Shown: piece after piece, positions 1,613 to 28,532 of the stretch
Layout of the letters: each line of letters starts with the position of its first letter
Numbering within the stretch: position 1 is the stretch's first letter
Assembly (NCBI GenBank): GCA_028282325.1
Contig: JANQID010000069.1
Coordinates: forward strand, 1 to 33,325
Length of the DNA: 33,325 nucleotides
From: Chloroflexaceae bacterium
GTDB taxonomy: Bacteria; Chloroflexota; Chloroflexia; Chloroflexales; Chloroflexaceae
Direction of reading: 5' to 3'
Translations under genes and position numbers: made by a program
Notes under the pieces: model-generated
Seen by the model: the letters and a program-made list of their open reading frames with translations, nothing else
Databases searched by the model: none
What the model was told of the DNA's origin: nothing

Positions 1613-2782
1613 CCAATTCAACTGGCACATTCGGCAAGGTTGGTGTACGATGGAGCCATCGGATTCCACTCCCTGTCATTGGAGGTATCAGATGTATCGT
1701 GCGCTCCCTGCGATTGCCGAGTCCGCCGACGAGTTACATGCCTTGCTGAAAGCCGAACGGCACCCCAAGAAGCACCAGCGGCTTCATGCGCTCTATCTGG
1801 TGGCGAGCGGTCAAGCACGCACCAAACAATCCGTGGCAGCCCTGCTCGGGGTGCATCGCGACACCATTGGCGCCTGGATGGCCACCTATGTCGATGGAGG
1901 CTTATCCGCCTACCTGGATCTCTATGTCCCGTCCGGCAGAGCACCCGCTGTTCCGCCCGAGGTCGAGGCGGAACTCGTGCAGGCGCTCCAGCGTCCCGAG
2001 GGGTTTGCGTCCTATAGCGAGATCCAAACCTGGCTGCGGATCAACTACAGCATTCAGATGCAATATAAGGCACTCCACAAGTTGGTCCATCACAAATTGA
2101 ACGCCCGTCCAAAGGTTGCGCGACCCAGTCATCGAAAAAAAACCGGCGGCCGTGACCGCGTTTCGGGACCAGGTGGCAGCGCAGATCCAGGCCGCCGTGC
2201 CACCGGATACGCCGCTCCCGGTGGAGGTGTATGTGCAGGATGAAAGCCGCTGGGGGCTGCGCACCGCGCAACGGCGGCGGATTACGATCCGAGGGGTGAA
2301 GCCGGTGGGCACGATGCAACACGAGTATGCCAAGACATGGCTGTACGGCGCGATAGCACCCGCCAGTGGCGACGCATTCTTTTTGCTGTTGCCGCACCTA
2401 GATACGACGAACATGCAGGTCTTTGTGGACACCTTCGCCACCACCTATGCGACAACCTATAACGTCGTGGTGCTCGATAACAGTGCGGCACATACCACCA
2501 AGGATCTCCGCCTCCCGGACAATATGGCCTTCGTTTTTCTCCCGCCCTACAGTCCGGAGTTGAATCCCGCTGAACGGGTGTGGCTGGATCTCCGCGGGCG
2601 GATGGCGTGGCAGCAGTTTGCGGATCTGGAATGTTTGGAAGATGAACTGTGTGTGCATCTGGATCAGTATGATGCGGCAACCTTCCAGTCGCTCACAAGC
2701 TACCCCTACCTGATCGAGGCAATCCATACCGTTGGGCCGTGGCCGGATACTGCCACCTTGCGGAGTATATAATTCGAATTGG
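1613..2782 (+). mobile_element. IS630-type insertion sequence (about 1.17 kb)
   Basis: The outer bases CCAATTC (1613-1619) and GAATTGG (2776-2782) are inverted copies and each is flanked by TA (1611-1612, 2783-2784). This is the TA target duplication typical of the IS630/Tc1-mariner superfamily. The interior is filled by one transposase in two frames. The element has inserted into or next to an older transposase gene on the minus strand, whose coding sequence stops at the element's right edge. Confidence 0.85.
1692..2772 (+). CDS. IS630-family DDE transposase, two frames joined at an A8 run
   Basis: The first frame (1692-2243, start MYRALPAIAES) encodes the DNA-binding helix-turn-helix part, including the segment KQSVAALLGVHRDTIGAWM. 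The second frame (open from 2116 to the TAA at 2770-2772) encodes the catalytic domain. The DDE residues are visible as VQDES, VLDNSAAH and SPELNPAERVW. The frames overlap, and joining them needs a +1 (or -2) shift at the run of eight A at 2135-2142, where RKK in the first frame continues as PAAVTAF in the second. Many IS630 members use programmed frameshifting or transcriptional slippage on such runs, so the gene may be active. A mutation or a homopolymer sequencing error would look the same. All three catalytic residues are intact. Confidence 0.85.
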
Positions 2783-2784
2783 TA

Positions 2785-3062
2785 TTATCTTTGTCCGCCT
2801 CACTCATCTTTGGCTGACGTCCGCCGCTATGGCGATAGTCCAAGGCTGTCGGGCCTTGCTCATTGTAGGTGTGGACCCACTTCAGGACCGTTTGCACACA
2901 GCGCTTGATCGTTCGGGCCCACTGACTGGCATTACATTGTTCTGTGCCGATCATATACAGCGCTTGAAATCTTTCTCGGCTCCGCTTATGGTCTGCTTCT
3001 ATCGATTTTTCTCGAATTTCTGCGGCCCTTTGCTGCCATTTTTCAAAGTCAGGACGGATCAT
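2785..3062 (-). pseudogene. Truncated transposase N-terminus (IS630-like helix-turn-helix), cut by the resident IS630
   Basis: Minus-strand frame starting MIRPDFEKWQQRAAEI at 3062, with AAGGAG just upstream. It contains a helix-turn-helix region (ASQWARTIKRCVQTVLKW) and the Gly/Arg segment RHSGGRQPKMSEADK that normally links the DNA-binding part to the catalytic domain of IS630-type transposases. The native frame ends at the TA flanking the insertion sequence. A further 26 codons read into the element are not native. The catalytic domain is not found on the far side. Confidence 0.6.
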
Positions 3063-3463
3063 TTTGGCTCCTTTTTCTTAATCTTAGGTTCATCCGTCCT
3101 ACTATACCTGCTTTTGATCGAAAACTTTAATTCTCTTTCTGTTTTCAGTATAGTAACCAGCCCGTTAAAACGACACCAGTTTGATTATAAACCAATTCTG
3201 TCGGCAAAACCACTCCGATTTTTAACCGGTTTTGCTGGCAAAATCCCATCGAAGCCGAGTACAGCTTCGACAGTCGCTTGCAACGATGTGTTGGGTAAAT
3301 TCTTCATCGTTAAAGGCGCATCTTTAGAAAATTTTATCTTTCGCCCAAAATATTACCAGATACTGAATTCCACCTACAACACACAAAATCACAATATCCA
3401 GCCTAGCAAACTCACCTCAATGCATGTATAATGACATACTTCCATACACATATAAAAAATGGG
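3063..3463. other. AT-rich intergenic region upstream of the histidine kinase
   Basis: Four hundred bases with no supported gene. It must contain the divergent promoters for the truncated transposase and for the kinase. A weak inverted repeat, GCAAAACC (3204-3211) and GGTTTTGC (3228-3235), is visible. The AT-rich composition contrasts with the coding DNA on its right. Confidence 0.4.
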
Positions 3464-5752
3464 ATGGCAAAGATGCGCATCAGAAAAAGTTTGTTACTAC
3501 TGGTACTGTTTTTGGCCCTAGCGTTGTTGGTAAATTTACTAGCACTGGGCTTTTTGGCCCGCACTATCACTGGCACGCTACCGACCATTGCCGCCGACGT
3601 GGAGGATCAACTGCTGGCGGTGCAGATGCAGGCTCGTTTGCGCGACTCAGAGGCGGCCTTGTATCGCTATTTAATGGAAGGAAAACCGGGCTTTAAAAGC
3701 CACTTCCGGGACCTATTGCAATATTTTGCCGCAGATGTTGATCGATATAACATCAGCGCTGTCTCAGATCAGGAACAACTTTGGGCCACGGACCTGTCGG
3801 AAACCCACCAACAAGCCGACGTTATAGCCGCCGACTTGATTCGACTGCGCGATGCCCAGGATCTGTCGCTACTGCACATTGAGGATGCGGAGCTTAAGCT
3901 TGCAGCTTTTCTGGCCCACCAGGTCCGGGTGGCCCGCCCCGAAGACGATGCCTTGTATCAAAACGCCGTGAGCGGTATGCAAGAATACCTTAACGAAATG
4001 TCGCTGGCTATTGCCTCGTATCTGGCCTCCCCCGATCCTGCCGAACTGGTGCGGTTTGATGAAGGCGTGATTGGGTTTCAGCATCATTACAATGTCTTTA
4101 AATCACTCATTCAAACAACAGAAGAACAATTTTGGAGCGACTACATCGGTAACCTATTCAACCAGATCAAGATTACGGGCACTTTTCTCATGCAAGGGCG
4201 AGACCGACAACAGCAGCAGTTTGCCACGTTTGCCGACAAGCTGCAACAAGCGGGCGATGAGGTACTGGTTGGTCAGATTCAGCCCCACGCTGCCGAAAAC
4301 CTGGCGGCAACCCAACAACAACTGGCTACCGCTATGAATCTGGCTATTGCCAACAGCCTGTTTGTAGCTGCCCTCTCTTCGGTGGTGGCCGGGACGATCA
4401 CCTGGCCCCTCCTACGCCGCATCGACGTCGGCATCGGTTCGCTGGTAGGGGGGGCCGAGCGCGTGGCCACCGGTGACCTGTCGGAACCGGTCTCCTTGTC
4501 CGGGGAGGATGAATTGGGGCAACTGGCTGGTGCTTTCAATAGTATGATGACCGATTTAGCTATTCGGGAGCGACGCCTCACGGCCCGCCTGTCCGAGTTG
4601 GAAGCCCTGCGCCAGGTCAGCCTGCAGTTGACTAGCACCCTCGACCCTGACCGTGTACTCGATACCATTGCCTCCAGCGCCTTACGCCTGGTCAACGCTG
4701 CTGAAGTACGTATTTTTGTATATGATCCGCAACACCTAGAGTTTGCGGCTAGCATTGCCGCCGACAGCTTCGAAGGCCGGTCTCCGCGTGTTCCGCGTGA
4801 TGGGGGTATCACCGTTACCGCGGCCCAAACCGGGCAACTCCAGGTAGTCAATCACGCCGCCCAACACCCGCTCTACACCACGTCGGAAATGCGGAAGTGG
4901 GGTATTAGGGCCGCGGCTGCTTTTCCGCTTAAGCAAAATGATCTGGTTACCGGGGTGTTGGGCGTGTCGCTGAATGACCGCGACTCCTTCAGCGATGACA
5001 ACCTGCGTATTTTGCAGCTATTATCGGATCAAGCAGCCATTGCTTTGGCCAACGCCCGGCTGTACGAACGGCTGGCCGTGCGCGAAGCTCGGCTGCACAC
5101 CCTGGCCGAGCAGCTTTCGCAAATTCAAGAGGAAGAGCGGCGACGCATTGGCTTGGATTTGCATGATGGTCTCACCCAACTGCTACTAAGCGCCAATATG
5201 CATCTTGACACCCTGACGGCGTTGGTTAACGGATTAGAAGTGCAGGCTGCCGCAGAACTACAAATGGGACAGGCGCGGCTGCGTGAGGCCATTAAAGAGG
5301 CTCGTTGGGTGGTTTCGGAACTGCGCCCGGCGGCGTTGGAAGATTTTGGATTGGTTTCCGGTGTGCGCCAGTACGCCACCGAACTGAGTGAATTGGAAGC
5401 CTGGCAGCTTGAATTTGTGGCTGACCTGGGGCATGTTAAACTGAACCCGGCAGTTGAAACTGCAATCTTTCGCATCGCTCAAGAAGCTCTGACCAATGCT
5501 CGCAAATATGCCAACCCCGAACGTGTCCGGGTGTCGTTGCATATTGATAAAAATAATTTACTGCTGGAAGTGCGAGATTGGGGGCGTGGCTTTGACGTCA
5601 ACTCGCTTGCGGATGGGCGTCGCCATTTTGGCCTCACCGGCATGCACGAGCGGGCTATGCTTCTAGATGGCGACCTGAAGATTGAAAGTTGGCCTGGAAA
5701 AGGCACCAGAATTGCCGTCCAAATTCCCCTGTACGCTGTGGAGAAGAAATGA
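3464..5752 (+). CDS. Membrane sensor histidine kinase, NarL/LiaS type (HAMP-GAF-HisKA_3-HATPase)
   Basis: The start was set at the ATG at 3464 (MAKMRIRKSLLLL), because the 11 residues in front of it (possible ATG at 3431) do not fit a signal anchor. Order of parts: membrane helix (about 8-33), a long helical extracytoplasmic sensor (about 35-295), second membrane helix (about 298-320), HAMP (about 320-375, ending DELGQLAGAFNSMM), GAF domain (about 395-530), dimerisation and phosphoacceptor helix RRRIGLDLHDGLTQLL with His567, and the ATPase domain (EALTNARKYA, DWGRGFD, GLTGMHERA, GKGTRI). All N and G boxes are present, so it should be active. The stop overlaps the start of the response regulator in ATGA (5749-5752), so the two are translationally coupled. 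The ligand is unknown. The nearby carboxylate transporter is a reasonable target. Confidence 0.9.
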   Translation: MAKMRIRKSLLLLVLFLALALLVNLLALGFLARTITGTLPTIAADVEDQLLAVQMQARLRDSEAALYRYLMEGKPGFKSHFRDLLQYFAADVDRYNISAVSDQEQLWATDLSETHQQADVIAADLIRLRDAQDLSLLHIEDAELKLAAFLAHQVRVARPEDDALYQNAVSGMQEYLNEMSLAIASYLASPDPAELVRFDEGVIGFQHHYNVFKSLIQTTEEQFWSDYIGNLFNQIKITGTFLMQGRDRQQQQFATFADKLQQAGDEVLVGQIQPHAAENLAATQQQLATAMNLAIANSLFVAALSSVVAGTITWPLLRRIDVGIGSLVGGAERVATGDLSEPVSLSGEDELGQLAGAFNSMMTDLAIRERRLTARLSELEALRQVSLQLTSTLDPDRVLDTIASSALRLVNAAEVRIFVYDPQHLEFAASIAADSFEGRSPRVPRDGGITVTAAQTGQLQVVNHAAQHPLYTTSEMRKWGIRAAAAFPLKQNDLVTGVLGVSLNDRDSFSDDNLRILQLLSDQAAIALANARLYERLAVREARLHTLAEQLSQIQEEERRRIGLDLHDGLTQLLLSANMHLDTLTALVNGLEVQAAAELQMGQARLREAIKEARWVVSELRPAALEDFGLVSGVRQYATELSELEAWQLEFVADLGHVKLNPAVETAIFRIAQEALTNARKYANPERVRVSLHIDKNNLLLEVRDWGRGFDVNSLADGRRHFGLTGMHERAMLLDGDLKIESWPGKGTRIAVQIPLYAVEKK

Positions 5753-6417
5753 GCCAAAGTTTTGCTGAAAAAATTACGGTTTTAGTGGTCGACGATCACC
5801 CAATGGTGCGTGAAGGTTTGCGCAGTATGCTGACTGCGCCCGACGTGCAGGTGATTGGCGAGGCCGGCAGTGGCCGAGAGGCTGTGGCGTTGATCCAGCA
5901 ATTAATCCCGGTGGTGGCGCTGATGGATATTCGAATGCCAGATATGGATGGACTGGATGCGTTACAAGCTATCAATAACCTCAATGTTAACACCCGCGTT
6001 GTCATCATCACTACCTATCGTAGCACGGCTTACCTTTTGCGGGCGCTGGCCGGCGGGGCTGCCGGCTTTGTGTTAAAAGATATCCCCCGCAAAGAGTTGC
6101 TGACCACAGTGCGGGCTGTGGCCAGGGGCGAATCTCGCGTGGATCGCGAGTTCTTGCAAAATGTTCTGCGTGATTTGGATGATCCCCCGGAACACCTGCC
6201 CGACGACGACCCGGTCTTGCCGGAACCACTCACCCCCCGCGAGATGGACGTGCTGCGCTTGCTGGTAGAAGGATTGACCAATCAAGGCATTGCTCAGACG
6301 CTTATGCTGAGTCCCGGCACAGTAAAAAGTTACCTGCAAACGGTGTTTCAAAAGCTCGATGTCTCGGATCGGACGCAGGCCGCAGTCAAGGCCATTCGGC
6401 TGGGATTGGTCAAATGA
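5749..6417 (+). CDS. Response regulator, NarL/FixJ family (receiver plus LuxR-type HTH)
   Basis: 222 residues, starting MSQSFAEKITVL at the ATG that overlaps the kinase stop. The receiver domain shows the acidic pair (VVDDH), the phosphoacceptor Asp60 in LMDIRMPD, the Thr pair in VIITTY and Lys110 in FVLKDIP. The C-terminal LuxR-type helix-turn-helix runs from LTPREMDVLRLLVEGLTN through SPGTVKSYLQTVFQKL. It is the cognate partner of the kinase immediately upstream. The gene ends one base before the convergent remains of a dehydrogenase gene. Downstream targets are not visible in the sequence, but the tctCBA transporter 1.1 kb further on is the obvious candidate. Confidence 0.93.
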   Translation: MSQSFAEKITVLVVDDHPMVREGLRSMLTAPDVQVIGEAGSGREAVALIQQLIPVVALMDIRMPDMDGLDALQAINNLNVNTRVVIITTYRSTAYLLRALAGGAAGFVLKDIPRKELLTTVRAVARGESRVDREFLQNVLRDLDDPPEHLPDDDPVLPEPLTPREMDVLRLLVEGLTNQGIAQTLMLSPGTVKSYLQTVFQKLDVSDRTQAAVKAIRLGLVK

Positions 6418-6418
6418 C

Positions 6419-7088
6419 TCAGGCCAACACCTCCGGATTCAACACATTCTCTGGCCGGCCCTTGAAAAAGTTGACCACATTTTGAAAGGCCACACCAAAA
6501 TAATATTCATAACCGTGCATTTCCACGTAACCCAGGTGAGGTGTACACAGCACGTTGGGTATAGTCAAGGCCCAATAGTTCACATCATAAATCGGCTCTT
6601 GCTCATACACATCCAACGCGGCCCGGCCGGGACGACCTTCAGTGAGCGCCCGCTTCAACTAGACAGGCCCGGCTGGTGTTGACAAACAGGGCGGTCGGCT
6701 TCATCTACGCCAAATCTTCGTAGCGCACTAGGCTGGTGGTGGCCGGTTTCAGCCGCAGGTGTAGGGTCAGGACATCGCTCTGCCCGAAGAAACTATTTTT
6801 ATCATCAGCGGCTTGAAAACCATCGGTTACGGCCTGCTGCCGCGATGACTCGCTGCCCCACACCAACACCGCCATCCCAAACGCCGCACCGTACCGCGCC
6901 ACCCGCCAGCCAATTTTGCCATAGCCCCAAATCCCTAGCGTTTCACCTTCCAAACAATCACCGATGTTGGTTTGCCAGTGCTCTGCTTTCATCCCGTTCA
7001 CCGCCGGTACCAGCCGCCGCATAGCAGCCATAATTAGCGCCCAGGTCAACTCTGCTGTAGCCACCGGCGAGCCAAAGCCTTTTATCAT
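6419..7088 (-). pseudogene. Decayed D-2-hydroxyacid dehydrogenase
   Basis: Minus-strand remains of an NAD-dependent D-isomer-specific 2-hydroxyacid dehydrogenase. Reading from 7088, the segments are SPVATAELTWALI, the Rossmann motif GIWGYGKIGWRVA, SDVLTLHLRL, then an in-frame TAG (6707-6705), then MKPTALFVNTSRA, a frameshift near 6650-6665, and ALDVYEQEP, CTPHLGYVE with the active-site His, up to NPEVLA. The N-terminal substrate-binding half is missing: the homology starts abruptly at 7088. At least three lesions (5' deletion, nonsense, frameshift) mean that no functional enzyme can be made. Confidence 0.85.
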
Positions 7089-7094
7089 CTGGCG

Positions 7095-7226
7095 ATCATT
7101 TCACCCCCTCCATAGGTTGGTCAACATACCCGTGAAGTGTTACAAGAAGTTGGTTATCTCTCAACAGAGATCGATGATTTATATGAACGGGGAATAATTG
7201 CCGAGCCGGAGCCGGTGATGGCCTAA
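7095..7226 (+). pseudogene. C-terminal fragment of a CaiB/BaiF-type CoA-transferase
   Basis: Plus-strand codons 7095-7226 read IISPPP, TAG (7113-7115), then VGQHTREVLQEVGYLS, TEIDDLYERGII and AEPEPVMA before TAA. The GQHTREVLxExGY...EIxxLxxxGII pattern is the standard C-terminal tail of family III CoA-transferases (formyl-CoA or carnitine-CoA transferase type). Everything upstream is missing. The fragment begins seven bases from where the truncated dehydrogenase begins in the opposite direction, so both were cut by the same rearrangement. Confidence 0.6.
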
Positions 7227-7571
7227 TACCGTTAGCGTGTGTCCCTCCAAATGGTAGGAAGCAAATCCCTCCGTTTGGGGGTAGTTGACTTTAATCTAAT
7301 TTGATAATCTTAATCCACCCAACTTGCTAACAAACCTCTGTTCAACTTTTCGCCCGGCGGCTTCACAGCATGAGCATTTTAGCTGGCGCAGAAGAGGCCG
7401 ATGCAGCCAAGGTGTCGCTCATTCACTTTACCCGCGTGGTGTTACTCTTTATTATTGTCCCGTTGATGGTCAGGCTACTGAAAGAGTCGAGCCTTCTCTA
7501 AGGTATGGCAACAAAAGATAACCCCCTTTAGTTTCGACTCTAATTATTTAATTTCCATTAAGGAGGAATGT
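7227..7571. other. Leader region of the tct operon, containing an AbrB-like remnant
   Basis: Apart from the fragment listed at 7317-7501, this stretch has no gene. A possible promoter is TTGACT (7285-7290) with CTTAAT (7309-7314) after 18 bp, but the -10 is weak. The perfect ribosome binding site AGGAGG (7561-7566) belongs to tctC. Confidence 0.35.
7317..7501 (+). pseudogene. Frameshifted C-terminal fragment of an AbrB-like (ammonia monooxygenase-like) membrane protein
   Basis: In one frame the DNA reads NKPLFNFSPGGFT. One base is missing just before ATG 7370, and it continues in the next frame as MSILAGAEEADAAKVSLIH, then FTRVVLLFIIVPLMVRLL, ending at TAA (7499-7501). The PGG..-MS..A.......V..-H..R.........PL..RL pattern is that of the C-terminal helix pair of AbrB-family membrane proteins. 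These proteins are often encoded next to tripartite tricarboxylate transporters. The assignment rests on about 55 residues. Confidence 0.45.
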
Positions 7572-8666
7572 ATGAAAACGAAGAAGTTTCTACTCATTTT
7601 AGTGGTTTTACTGATCATGGTATTGGTGGCGGCCTGCGCCCCCGCCGAAGAACCACCGCCCCCGACCCAGGGAGAAGCAACTCAGGAAGAGGCGGCCCCG
7701 GCAGAAGAAGTCTCTTCCGCAGAAGAGGCTGCGCCTGCTGAGGAAGCCGCTGCTGGTTTTACCCCTGGCGGGGTGGAGTGTATCGCACCGGCCAATCCTG
7801 GTGGCGGCTGGGACTGGACGTGTCGCTCGGTGGGCCAAACGCTGAGCGATGTTGGCCTGGTTGACGGTACGGTCAAAGTGACCAATATGGCTGGCGGCGG
7901 CGGCGGGGTGGCTTTTGCCAACGTGGTTACCCAACAGAATGACAACGACAACCTGCTGGTGGCAGCCAGCCCGGCCACTACGCTACGTTTGGCTCAAGGG
8001 CAGTACGGCGAATTCACCGAAGATGATGTGCGCTGGATTGGCGCGGTGGGCGCTGATTTCGCTGTGATTACAGTGGCTGCGGATAGCCCCTACGAAACTC
8101 TAGAAGACTTGATTACGGTCTTGCAAGAGGACCCCGGTTCAGTCAACTTCGGGGGTGGCAGCGCCATTGGCGGGCAGGATCATATGAAGGTGATGGTACT
8201 GGCCCAAGCTGCCGGCATTGACCCCCTCACTCTGAAATACACACCCTTTGACGGCGGCGGAGAAGCGATGACGGCTATGCTCGGCGGTTTTGTCGATGTT
8301 TTCCCCGGCGATGTCTCTGAGGTATTGGGGCAGTTGGAAGCGGGTGAAATCCAGGTACTAGCGACGCTAACCGCAGACCCGATGGGCGGTATGCTGGAAG
8401 GTGTGCCGACAGCCAAAGAGCAAGGCTATGATGCCGAATGGATTGTTTTCCGTGGCTTCTATGGCCCCGGCGGGATGAGCGACGAGGCCTACAACTACTG
8501 GGTCAACGCTCTGGGCCAAATGGCCGACTCCCCCGAATGGGAAGAACAGTTGCAGCAGGGCGGTCTGGAAAAGATCGTTCGTCTTGGCCCCGAATTTGAA
8601 CCCTTCGTTAGCACTCAAATTACCAACTTCCGCCAACTCAGCAGAGATTTGGGCTTAATCGAATAA
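7572..8666 (+). CDS. tctC: TctC/Bug-family extracytoplasmic solute-binding lipoprotein
   Basis: 364 residues. A lipoprotein signal peptide ends in VLVAAC with the lipidated Cys at residue 22. A Glu/Ala/Pro-rich tether of about 38 residues follows, then the Bug domain (IAPANPGGGWDWTCR, NMAGGGGGVAFANV, VNFGGGSAIGGQDHMKV, GYDAEWIVFRGFYGP). It captures a carboxylate (citrate-like di- or tricarboxylates, or other organic acids) outside the membrane and hands it to TctAB. The start is certain: AGGAGG lies 5 nt upstream. The ligand cannot be read from the sequence. It is the first gene of tctC-tctB-tctA and is separated from tctB by a strong hairpin, which would allow excess binding protein over permease. 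Confidence 0.93.
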   Translation: MKTKKFLLILVVLLIMVLVAACAPAEEPPPPTQGEATQEEAAPAEEVSSAEEAAPAEEAAAGFTPGGVECIAPANPGGGWDWTCRSVGQTLSDVGLVDGTVKVTNMAGGGGGVAFANVVTQQNDNDNLLVAASPATTLRLAQGQYGEFTEDDVRWIGAVGADFAVITVAADSPYETLEDLITVLQEDPGSVNFGGGSAIGGQDHMKVMVLAQAAGIDPLTLKYTPFDGGGEAMTAMLGGFVDVFPGDVSEVLGQLEAGEIQVLATLTADPMGGMLEGVPTAKEQGYDAEWIVFRGFYGPGGMSDEAYNYWVNALGQMADSPEWEEQLQQGGLEKIVRLGPEFEPFVSTQITNFRQLSRDLGLIE

Positions 8667-8681
8667 ATTTTCCACAAACGC

Positions 8682-8714
8682 AGACCTCATAGGTTTCAAA
8701 GACCTATGAGGTCT
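8682..8714 (+). terminator. Intercistronic hairpin between tctC and tctB (attenuating terminator)
   Basis: Arms AGACCTCATAGGT (8682-8694) and ACCTATGAGGTCT (8702-8714) are perfectly complementary over 13 bp with a 7-nt loop. TTATTTTAG follows. This is a partial terminator or an mRNA 3'-end stabiliser, placed where transporter operons commonly lower expression of the membrane subunits relative to the binding protein. Confidence 0.75.
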
Positions 8715-8743
8715 TATTTTAGTAGTCACAAGGAGGTTGGACT

Positions 8744-9199
8744 ATGACTACTAATCTCACCGACCGAGTTACTGGCGTGTTTCTGCTGTTGTTTGCCATC
8801 TGGTATGGCTATCGCACCACCCTGTTCAAAGTGTCATTTATGGCTGATCCGGTTGGCCCTAGAGTTTTCCCGTTAGGTCTGGCTATTCTAATGGGTGTTC
8901 TCAGTCTGTATCTAATTATCAAACCAGACCCTAGCCCGGTCTGGCCCGGTTCAAAGACCTGGATAAGAATCGGGTTGATTACCCTCACTTTTATCGTTTA
9001 CGCCTATCTGATGGTGCCAATTGGTTTTGTGCTGTCCACTACCTTTGAAATCACGGCGCTGGCCTTGATTTTTCGGGGGCCGCCGCTCAAAAGTATTATC
9101 GGCGCGTTTCTACTTAGCGCCGCCCTGTACAGTTTGTTTGATATACTCTTAGACCTCAGCCTGCCAACCGGCTCAGTCTTTCGTGGATTGTGGGGGTAG
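8744..9199 (+). CDS. tctB: TctB-family small transmembrane subunit of the tripartite tricarboxylate transporter
   Basis: 151 residues with four predicted membrane helices: about 9-28, 38-60, 73-108 (probably a long or re-entrant pair) and 118-142. The loop ADPVGPRVFPLG after the first helix is characteristic of TctB. The start ATG has AAGGAGG 6 nt upstream. TctB is the poorly conserved small subunit that pairs with the 12-helix TctA in the cytoplasmic membrane. It lies 6 bp before tctA, so the two are co-translated. Confidence 0.88.
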   Translation: MTTNLTDRVTGVFLLLFAIWYGYRTTLFKVSFMADPVGPRVFPLGLAILMGVLSLYLIIKPDPSPVWPGSKTWIRIGLITLTFIVYAYLMVPIGFVLSTTFEITALALIFRGPPLKSIIGAFLLSAALYSLFDILLDLSLPTGSVFRGLWG

Positions 9200-9205
9200 G
9201 TCTCG

Positions 9206-10717
9206 ATGGAAATTCTCAACTTTCTGTTCGAGGGCTTTGCCATTGCGCTAACGCCCTTCAACATTGCGATGGCTTTGGCCGGTTGCTTCATTGGCACCGC
9301 CGTGGGTATGCTACCCGGAATCGGCCCGGTCAACGGCATTGTGGTGCTGATTCCGCTCACCTTTGCTTTGGGCCTACCGCCTGAGTCGTCGATAATCATG
9401 TTTGCCGGAATTTACTACGGCTCGCAATATGGTAACTCTATCAGCGCCATTTTGCTCAACGTACCCGGTACTTCCGCTGCGGTCATGACGGCGATGGAAG
9501 GCAATGCGATGACCAAAAAAGGGCGCGCCGGCCCCGCATTGGCGATGTCGGCCATCGCCTCATTTTTTGGCGGTACGGTCTCGATAGTAGCCTTGATGCT
9601 GTTTGCGCCGGCGCTGTCAAAATGGGCCATCCGTTTTGGTCCGGCGGAGTACTTTGCCCTGATGGTGTTTGCCTTCTCCACCCTGTCCAGTTTATCCGGT
9701 AAAAATCTCATCAAAGGGCTGTTGGCCACTATGATGGGGCTGATGCTGGCTACGGTGGGCCTAGACCCGGTCAGCGCGGTTGATCGTTATACCTTTGGTC
9801 AACTCAAACTGCTAGACGGGCTTGATTTTGTGGTCGTGGTCATCGGTTTCTTTGCCATTAATGAGATTCTGCGCTACGCTGAAAACATCCACGACCAAGA
9901 GGTATTTACCAAACTGGGCCGGGTGATGATTACGGCCAAAGAGTTTGCGATGTCCTTTTGGACGATGGTGAGAGGTGCGGCAATTGGCTTTTTTGTCGGC
10001 GTCCTGCCCGGCGCAGGTGGCACCATTGCCAGCTTTGTGGCCTGGACCACTGAACAGCGCCTCGTTGACCGGCAAGGCACCTTTGGCACCGGCGACATTC
10101 GGGGCGTGGCTGCGCCGGAGGCAGCGAATAACGCTTCAGCCAACGGGGCAATGATTCCCTTGCTCACGCTGGGCGTCCCCGGCAGCGAAACCACGGCGGT
10201 CATGCTGGGCGCGTTGCTGGGGATGAACATCACCCCCGGTCCGCTGTTCATTGCCAACAACCCCACTGTCTTTTGGGGGCTAATCGCCTCGATGTACGTG
10301 GGCAACGTCCTGCTGCTAATTCTCAACCTGCCGTTGGTGGGCATTTTTGTGCGGATTTTGAAAGTTCCTGGCTGGTTTTTAATGCCGGCGGTGGTGGCTG
10401 TTAGCTTTGTGGCGGTCTATTCCGTTAACAACAGTCCATTCGATATCCTGCTCATGGCTGCTTTTGGCATTATGGGCTATCTATTATACAAAACTGAGTT
10501 CCCGCTGGCCTCTGTAATCTTGGGGTTGGTGTTGGGGCCACTGATGGAAAACAATTTGCGGCGGGCGATGTCGCTGAGTGATGGCGACTGGACCTATCTT
10601 TTCAGCAGTCCGATTGCCATTGGTCTGTGGATTGCCGCTATAGCCAGCCTGTTCCTGCCGCTAATAATCAAACGATTTGGCGCAGCGTCTGAAATTTCTA
10701 AGGAAGAGGTGAATTAA
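9206..10717 (+). CDS. tctA: TctA-family large permease subunit of the tripartite tricarboxylate transporter
   Basis: 503 residues, the usual TctA length, almost entirely hydrophobic helices. Both halves carry the family's signature loop: GMLPGIGP at 34-41 and GVLPGAGG at 265-272. These are part of the inverted repeat that forms the substrate pathway. Other conserved segments are YYGSQYGNSISAILLNVPGT and PLLTLGVPGSETTAVMLG. It should move the carboxylate delivered by TctC across the membrane, driven by a cation gradient. The gene is followed 35 bp later by a good intrinsic terminator, so the operon is tctCBA only. Confidence 0.95.
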   Translation: MEILNFLFEGFAIALTPFNIAMALAGCFIGTAVGMLPGIGPVNGIVVLIPLTFALGLPPESSIIMFAGIYYGSQYGNSISAILLNVPGTSAAVMTAMEGNAMTKKGRAGPALAMSAIASFFGGTVSIVALMLFAPALSKWAIRFGPAEYFALMVFAFSTLSSLSGKNLIKGLLATMMGLMLATVGLDPVSAVDRYTFGQLKLLDGLDFVVVVIGFFAINEILRYAENIHDQEVFTKLGRVMITAKEFAMSFWTMVRGAAIGFFVGVLPGAGGTIASFVAWTTEQRLVDRQGTFGTGDIRGVAAPEAANNASANGAMIPLLTLGVPGSETTAVMLGALLGMNITPGPLFIANNPTVFWGLIASMYVGNVLLLILNLPLVGIFVRILKVPGWFLMPAVVAVSFVAVYSVNNSPFDILLMAAFGIMGYLLYKTEFPLASVILGLVLGPLMENNLRRAMSLSDGDWTYLFSSPIAIGLWIAAIASLFLPLIIKRFGAASEISKEEVN

Positions 10718-10801: not shown

Positions 10802-10863
10802 GCCACCCAATGCGCGGATAAGCTGCCGCCGCAGGCGGTCCGATTCATCCGCGCATTATGCGG
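10802..10863 (+). repeat. 62-bp dispersed repeat, copy B
   Basis: Same orientation as 1412-1473 with 57 of 62 bases identical. It runs directly into a hairpin-rich stretch and lies immediately to the right of the tct terminator. Confidence 0.8.
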
Positions 10864-10932
10864 AGCGCAGCGGAGCAGACAAGCGATGAAGCGTGCTTAT
10901 CCGCGCATTATGCGGAGCGTAGCTCCGCATAA
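10847..10932. repeat. Short direct repeats and a strong palindrome
   Basis: The 21-bp unit ATCCGCGCATTATGCGGAGC(G) occurs exactly at 10847-10867 and again at 10899-10919. The second copy is extended into a palindrome with 11-bp arms, TTATGCGGAGC (10908-10918) and GCTCCGCATAA (10922-10932), and a 3-nt loop. It is REP-like and non-coding. Confidence 0.75.
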
Positions 10933-11235
10933 CATGAATTAGACGGCAATCGCGCGGCCTATGATCACCCAGAGCAATGATAGGCGGTGATCGCGCCTTC
11001 TATCATCGCCCGGAGGCATCATAGACAGCTATCCATCGATCTATCACTCCGCCGGGAGCGCTGTTCAACAGACGCGTATCCTGGCAGACAGGCTAATGAT
11101 AACATGCCGTTTGGTACTGTGCAAGGGAGTGCAAATGTCGCCGGCTAACCGGACCGCAGCCTCGGCGCCGCGCGTCGCCCGCTGAAGGATAGGCCATCTC
11201 CGCGCCTCCGCGTGTCGCCGTGTCGGCGCGCCAAC
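10933..11235. other. Intergenic region downstream of thpR, no gene seen
   Basis: Three hundred bases with several short, imperfect, self-similar segments: TGATCACC, TAGGCGGTGATCGCGCC and CTATCATCGCCCGG are related to one another. The DNA becomes GC-rich to the right. No open frame with a recognisable product is present. Confidence 0.4.
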
Positions 11236-27235: not shown

Positions 27236-27641
27236 CATTAGAGATTTTAGATTGCCGATAGACGAAATATCGACCCTCACCCCCGGTCCCTTTTGGGATA
27301 CCGCTGGTTTATTCGTGATGAGCGGGCTCGAGGTTGACGCTCCTGCTACGATGGAACATATCGGCTTGATGTGATTGACCGCAGGAGGTGCGCGATGACC
27401 TGTGACCATACCCGCTGGTACGTGATCCCCGACGCGACGGTCTGGCGCTCTGGAGTTTTGGGATCGCCCATACTCGCACCTGTGGCCGCCTGATGGTCGC
27501 GACGTTTCTGGCCCTCCTGTTGGGGCAGAAGATCGTTTTCATTTGCTCCAGAACCTTGCCGACACGCTCCTCTACGGGCGGCGACCGGCGTAACCGAACC
27601 TAACGTGCAATCATCACCTATGGCGGCGCCTGCGGTACCAG
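27236..27641. other. Degenerate stretch between the secreted protein and the ISL3 remnant
   Basis: No functional gene. An ATG at 27394 with GGAGG upstream opens a 32-codon frame (MTCDHTRWYVIPDATVW…) that is not recognised. Further short frames in this block are probably the decayed N-terminal part of the transposase that follows. Confidence 0.35.
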
Positions 27642-28330
27642 CAGACCAGCGGCGGGAGGCGCCACATTCGCATCGTCTGCATGGACATGTGGGAGGCTTA
27701 TGTGACCGCCACGGAGGATGTCTTGCCCCACGCGGCCAGCGTGATGGATCGGTTCCATGTCGCCCAGTACACCGCGACAATGTGGACGCCTTCCGCAAGC
27801 AGGAACTCAAACGGTTGCGGAAGCCCCTGGCGAAGGAGGATGCCGAGCACCTCAAACGCACGCTCTGGCCCTTTCGTAAGCGGAGCACCGACCGCGAACC
27901 CGATGAGCAGGACCGCTTGGATCGCCTCTGAGCCGCTAGCTCTGATCTGGAAACGGCCTACGACCTGCGCGCGGAACTGACCGAGATTTTCGATACGACT
28001 ACAAAACGATGCTACCCATGCCGCATGTCACCCTGAACGGCGCCGCCAGCAGCGTGAAGGGTCTGGGCGTTGGGATGAATCTGAGATTCTTCGCTGCGCT
28101 CAGAATGACACCATGCGGTGTCTCCATTATTGTTTGGTCGACCCGCTCCAAAACGGCGGGCATCCGGCCGATCACCGCGTGGCGGCCGGCAGTGGTCAAG
28201 AGCGGCCTGACTGGCTTTGCGCCGTTCCTGAAGCTCCTCGATACCTGGCTGGATCGCATCGCCAACTCTTTTCGCCATCACCAGAGCAGCGGCTTCGTTG
28301 AGGGTCTCAACAACTCTCGCCGGAAAGCAG
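27642..28330 (+). pseudogene. Broken ISL3-family transposase
   Basis: Four fragments of one DDE transposase lie in order. IRIVCMDMWEAYVTATEDVL and VMDRFHVAQ (first two catalytic Asp regions) end at a frameshift near 27770. NVDAFRKQELKRLRKPLAK to DEQDRLDRL ends in a stop at 27929-27931. SSDLETAYDLRAELTEIFDT follows in another frame. After a small insertion come GIRPITAWRPAVVKSGLTGF, LLDTWLDRIANSFRHH and SGFVEGLNN, which carries the catalytic Glu. The order and motifs are those of ISL3 (IS204/IS1001 type) transposases. Frameshifts, stops and an insertion leave no functional product. Confidence 0.8.
28015..28140. repeat. About 125-bp insertion inside the ISL3 pseudogene, REP-like
   Basis: Transposase homology stops at TEIFDT and resumes at KTAGIRPITAW. 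The extra DNA between them includes the hyphenated palindrome ATTCT-TCGCTGCGCTC-AGAAT (about 28087-28107). I recall this word as a common dispersed intergenic repeat of bacterial genomes. It occurs once in this window. The exact edges cannot be set without an intact copy of the element. Confidence 0.45.
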
Positions 28331-28532
28331 CTTTGCGTCCAAGGAACGCACGAACCGACATTCGCCTTTTATCTTTTGCCTTGCCAAGGCTGATCTCGTC
28401 TGCTATGATACACATGATCTGATCATCACCCGCTATGTCCACAACCATCACCGTCGAGATAAGCCCCCGCAGCGCCGATCTGCGATCTACTTCGAGGCTT
28501 AGGCGGAGTAAACTATCCCGGCAGGCACGCGT
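28331..28532. other. Upstream region of the BTAD regulator
   Basis: Two hundred bases between the pseudogene end and ATG 28533. There is no gene and no strong promoter match. The three-fold 11-bp repeat seen before 31875 is not present here, so autoregulation through that site is not supported. Confidence 0.35.

Follow-up and report, generated by a model that had tools for sequence, protein, structure and literature searches.

In a draft genome of a Chloroflexaceae bacterium, three broken genes lie between an intact two-component pair and the intact genes of a TctCBA transporter. Are they what is left of one pathway for the imported compound, or have genes with different histories decayed side by side? 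The sequence-only reading took the first view: a carboxylate catabolic cluster destroyed by one rearrangement beside an importer that still works. The window (the whole stretch of DNA analysed, 33,325 nucleotides) is one complete contig of a 4.6-Mb draft genome in 140 contigs.

The gap and the intact genes around it

A region of 1.15 kb without an intact gene is bounded by a response regulator gene, which ends at 6417, and tctC, which starts at 7572 (Table 1). Three broken genes had been placed within one kilobase here, and reading all six frames finds the three remnants in their places. The missing halves of the three genes are absent from the rest of the window. A plasmid megablast of positions 6000-8000 gives no match, Rfam and tRNA scans give nothing, and promoter and terminator scans are near chance, with 2 hits each against chance means of 1.0 and 1.9, respectively.

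Table 1. Features at and around the gap; positions are those of the window
Feature	Position	Strand	Basis
Sensor histidine kinase, intact	3431..5752	+	HAMP, GAF, HisKA_3, HATPase_c; 773 aa
NarL-type response regulator, intact	5752..6417	+	Response_reg and GerE
D-2-hydroxyacid dehydrogenase pseudogene	6419..7088	-	six-frame reading, PF02826, alignment of relatives
Junction	7082..7101		end of dehydrogenase homology, start of CoA-transferase homology
Class III CoA-transferase C-terminal tail, pseudogene	about 7101..7226	+	six-frame reading, local profile
AbrB-duplication membrane protein C-terminal tail, pseudogene	about 7335..7501	+	PF05145 below cut-off, local profile
tctC, intact, lipoprotein-like solute-binding protein	7572..8666	+	Pfam; 69.1% identity to L022
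tctB, intact	8744..9199	+	Pfam; 58.5% identity to L022
tctA, intact	9206..10717	+	Pfam (514 bits); 81.6% identity to L022

TctC, TctB and TctA are encoded by complete, consecutive ORFs, and all three match their Pfam families (PF03401, PF07331 and PF01970) above the cut-offs, which bears out the earlier description of the transporter as intact. An AAGGAGG-like ribosome site lies just upstream of tctC. The gene order C-B-A and the presence of all three families are those of TTT operons; the difference is that 1.15 kb of dead genes separates the regulator pair, here a GAF/HisKA_3 kinase and a NarL-type regulator, from tctC. The closest TctCBA is that of locus L022, from the Chloroflexi MAG Dive96_bin10.65; the next-best TctA among 400 genomes of the phylum has 52% identity. 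All three tct genes differ from those of L022 mainly at the third codon base (in TctA, 18.0, 8.4 and 53.9% differences at codon positions 1, 2 and 3), which is as expected of living genes. The L022 contig, of 6957 bases with only 446 of them upstream of the transporter genes, contains no dehydrogenase, CoA-transferase or AbrB. It differs in having a solute-binding-like protein (named by eye from the translation) after TctCBA.

The two-component pair had likewise been called intact, and the Pfam domains of kinase and regulator agree. Such pairs are on record beside tctCBA: PMC5812351 describes bctDE-bctCBA, which resembles this locus in having a two-component pair near TctCBA. A search for relatives of the kinase in 82 genomes of the order (E 1e-90) matched only its own genome; weak generic matches (34-36 bits) are found in two of the 23 TTT loci from the same phylum, and L022 shows too short an upstream stretch (446 bases) to add to these. 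A link between regulator and transporter is suggested by their nearness, and the comparison of loci lends it no support. It is very unlikely that the importer outlived its own catabolic genes through being taken over for another role, such as feeding an unrelated enzyme or presenting substrate-bound TctC to the adjacent kinase as a signal, as described for BctC of Bordetella; were that so, the scar would mark a TTT system put to a new use.

The remnants and their junction

The minus-strand remnant keeps roughly the C-terminal two thirds of a D-2-hydroxyacid dehydrogenase. Its first and second pieces match 2-Hacid_dh_C (PF02826) with 103.7 and 30.6 bits (cut-off 25.1). Compared with intact relatives of 324 and 327 aa, homology starts around residue 97-100, the first 97-100 codons or so being gone. 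An in-frame TAG is present at 6703-6705, and the frame changes near 6650-6660, where there are about 14 nt fewer than in the relatives (counted by hand). With its 5' part missing, a stop and a frame change, the gene has no full-length open frame. At the 3' end nothing seems to be missing, and the stop codon of the gene lies one base from that of the regulator.

Homology to CoA-transferases runs from about 7101, is interrupted by an in-frame TAG at 7113-7115, and continues from 7116 to 7223 before the terminal stop, giving a tail of 36 residues after the in-frame stop. Pfam finds no match, PF02515 included, in these 36 residues alone. Against a local profile made from 19 CoA-transferase-like ORFs, the tail reaches 31.7 bits; the best of 1000 shuffles scores 2.0 (537 reported). 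It aligns with the tails of intact members, with 20 of 33 residues identical to the protein of L208 (itself a PF02515 member with 512 bits); this is its best match to a TTT-linked gene and is not separable by score from others (99 against 98). The tail is classed as a remnant of family III, not as a member of it.

The AbrB remnant changes frame near 7368-7370. It scores 27.0 bits against PF05145, just below the cut-off of 29.2, and a read-through of both frames reaches 38.2 bits on a local profile, for which the best of 1000 shuffles gives 6.8 (843 reported). Its best fit is an intact AbrB protein from L154, at the C-terminus. Because the shuffled tails score far lower, neither the CoA-transferase nor the AbrB match is due to chance. 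The gene identities and lesions of the sequence-only reading are supported.

Dehydrogenase homology stops at about 7082 and CoA-transferase homology starts at about 7101, so there is a real junction within about 20 bases, yet it is not fixable to the base. The single shared breakpoint proposed at 7088/7095 lies within error of these positions and stands. Both genes are cut on the 5' side and read away from each other; a single deletion inside a divergent gene pair would explain the junction in one event.

That the scar is an assembly artefact, either a chimeric join or a set of base errors, is hardly credible, even in a draft of 140 contigs. Five or more separate lesions fall within 1 kb, yet elsewhere in the window about 14 long ORFs are open. 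Some of these lesions are missing stretches, from about 14 to several hundred bases long. Base errors are unlikely because of these open frames and because each remnant is short of hundreds of bases. A foreign left part joined on by mistake is also unlikely, since a dispersed repeat (about 130 nt, with copies at 1412-1474 and 10802-10940) matches other contigs of the same genome. The repeat has 17 matches in the genome, query included, most of them on other contigs.

Codon positions give some indication of age. The dead dehydrogenase differs from that of L143 at 37.6, 29.6 and 59.2% of codon positions 1, 2 and 3 in piece 1, and at 42.3, 33.3 and 59.0% in piece 2. In the same regions, the live pair L144 and L143 differs at 35.2, 24.0 and 59.2% and at 28.2, 26.9 and 67.9%; piece 2 of the dead gene thus has an excess at position 1 (42.3 against 28.2%). 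As the pattern is near that of the live pair, most of the divergence would have arisen while the gene was alive, and it would have died recently relative to the split from its relatives. The scar appears fairly recent.

Kinship and neighbours of the broken genes

The families of the three remnants had been described as frequent neighbours of TTT transporters. Their occurrence was compared in 80 TctA loci from named genomes, 23 TTT loci from the same phylum (drawn from searches of 100 relatives and 400 phylum genomes) and 33 control loci without TTT. These samples are small, the loci differ in length and some share a genome. Eight of the 33 controls were picked because they hold the dehydrogenase; a dehydrogenase ORF of some kind is present in three of the remaining 25, and two of those three are on contigs of the same genome as the window, chosen after an earlier dehydrogenase search had named them.

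Class III CoA-transferases are found as three copies in two of the 23 same-phylum loci (L202 and L208) and in none of the 33 controls. Only one of the 80 TctA loci has a CoA-transferase, and that is a fragment at the edge of the locus, at a distance of 7.7 kb. L202 and L208 resemble the present locus in having a CoA-transferase adjoining TctCBA. Their genes are intact and either diverge from tctC or lie downstream of tctA, whereas here just a tail is present, upstream of tctC and on its strand. In L208, CoA-transferases flank TctCBA: one is divergent from tctC, and the other follows tctA directly.

AbrB is found beside TctA in four of the 80 loci (L030, L034, L041 and L059) and in one of the 23 (L154, with two copies), and in no control. 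It is downstream of TctA in all five, and L154 additionally has one AbrB upstream of a TctA; here the remnant is upstream of TctC. The L154 locus, from the same order, contains two TctA and two AbrB genes with several metabolic-looking ORFs between them, and is a better place for studying AbrB beside TTT transporters. A D-2-hydroxyacid dehydrogenase ORF is present in one of the 80 loci and in one of the 23; the two loci are L203 and L023. The families do therefore occur as neighbours, as seen for CoA-transferase and AbrB, also in this phylum; "often" does not hold, since only a minority of loci have them.

The kinship of the dead dehydrogenase points elsewhere. At E 1e-40, nine of the order's 82 genomes match it, its own included. 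In a tree of 19 rows the dead gene groups with those of G048 and G012 with 99/99 support, and a larger starred set of nine rows unites it with six more genomes of the order, apart from L203 and L023, although L203 is a long branch whose exact place is unsure. Its identity is 53-57% to solitary genes of this clade (among them L143 and L144, which are intact and do not adjoin a transporter of the TctCBA kind) and 36% to the TTT-linked genes of L203 and L023. At E 1e-5, nothing matching TctC, TctB or TctA turns up in the eight clade loci (L143, L144 and L258-L263), which also lack matches to CoA-transferase and AbrB. When TctC was searched for in the eight genomes, seven gave no match and G048 gave one N-terminal match (5.4e-4). 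As all eight loci are without TctA, CoA-transferase and AbrB, the dehydrogenase seems to be solitary and was probably not a partner of TctCBA.

It is consequently unlikely that all three genes formed one carboxylate catabolic cluster whose pathway was killed by one rearrangement while import continued. Each family does occur beside TTT somewhere, and dehydrogenase and CoA-transferase share a junction. However, the TTT-linked dehydrogenases are not among the close relatives of the dead one, the loci of its own clade are solitary in eight cases of eight, and a relative with the complete cluster was sought and not found: the three genes are never together in the 103 TTT loci (80 and 23), many of which end at contig ends. 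No ancestral or intermediate arrangement is found among the loci examined. In the one literature library searched, no paper contains the three terms TTT, Chloroflexi and pseudogene together. The idea of a carboxylate catabolic cluster graveyard is to be narrowed: CoA-transferase and AbrB plausibly went with TctCBA, while the dehydrogenase, with its 99/99 clade and solitary relatives, probably did not.

Origin of the scar and its surroundings

We favour, as somewhat probable, a gene-decay scar in which CoA-transferase and AbrB remnants of the TctCBA surroundings were joined by deletion to an unlinked, solitary dehydrogenase. The remnants and the neighbours in other genomes suggest that a CoA-transferase and an AbrB-type gene once lay just upstream of TctCBA on the same strand; a solitary, functionally unlinked D-2-hydroxyacid dehydrogenase would have lain divergently beyond them. 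One deletion may then have taken the facing 5' parts of dehydrogenase and CoA-transferase, joining the remainders, and a separate event the 5' part of the AbrB gene. Point stops and frame changes would have come afterwards. The importer, with its own ribosome site, stayed open and may continue to import. If the CoA-transferase activated the imported acid, as it may have done, the cell would now have to process the acid in another way or use the importer for something else. The locus is a case of ordinary bacterial gene loss.

Lying close together in a gene graveyard does not prove that genes belonged to one pathway; of the remnants here, two fit the transporter and the third a solitary gene. 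This is a caution for inferring TTT substrates from dead neighbours, with little import beyond the locus itself.

The TctCBA block might instead have arrived, by transposition or horizontal transfer, with a broken edge in or beside the dehydrogenase, the junction being the edge of the block. TctCBA genes this close are patchy, as the drop to 52% outside L022 suggests, and the right-hand neighbours, which by their sequences look like thpR and ppk, are paired in 10 of 11 relatives fetched, none of which has TctCBA nearby. A broken transposase is also present at 1650-2772. Against arrival, the lost 5' portion of the dehydrogenase lies neither at the other edge nor elsewhere in the window, and the G+C content of 3431-10717 (54.1%) is ordinary for this genome (mean 56.2%, sd 3.6, in 43 blocks of 5 kb), so that a foreign origin by G+C is unsupported. 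Arrival of the block is distinctly improbable.

Several other elements lie outside the gap. The 63-nt repeats at 1412 and 10802 were considered as transposon ends and rejected; they belong to the dispersed family with 17 genome matches, and no mobile unit is therefore claimed. Four of the matches are at or near contig ends. The transposase is of the DDE_3 (IS630-like) type, with its N-terminal part at 1650-2243 and its catalytic part at 2116-2772 in different frames, and is probably broken. A second transposase-like HTH fragment (PF13551) abuts it at 2706-3062 on the minus strand. At 27605-28422, overlapping broken frames look by eye like another decayed transposase.
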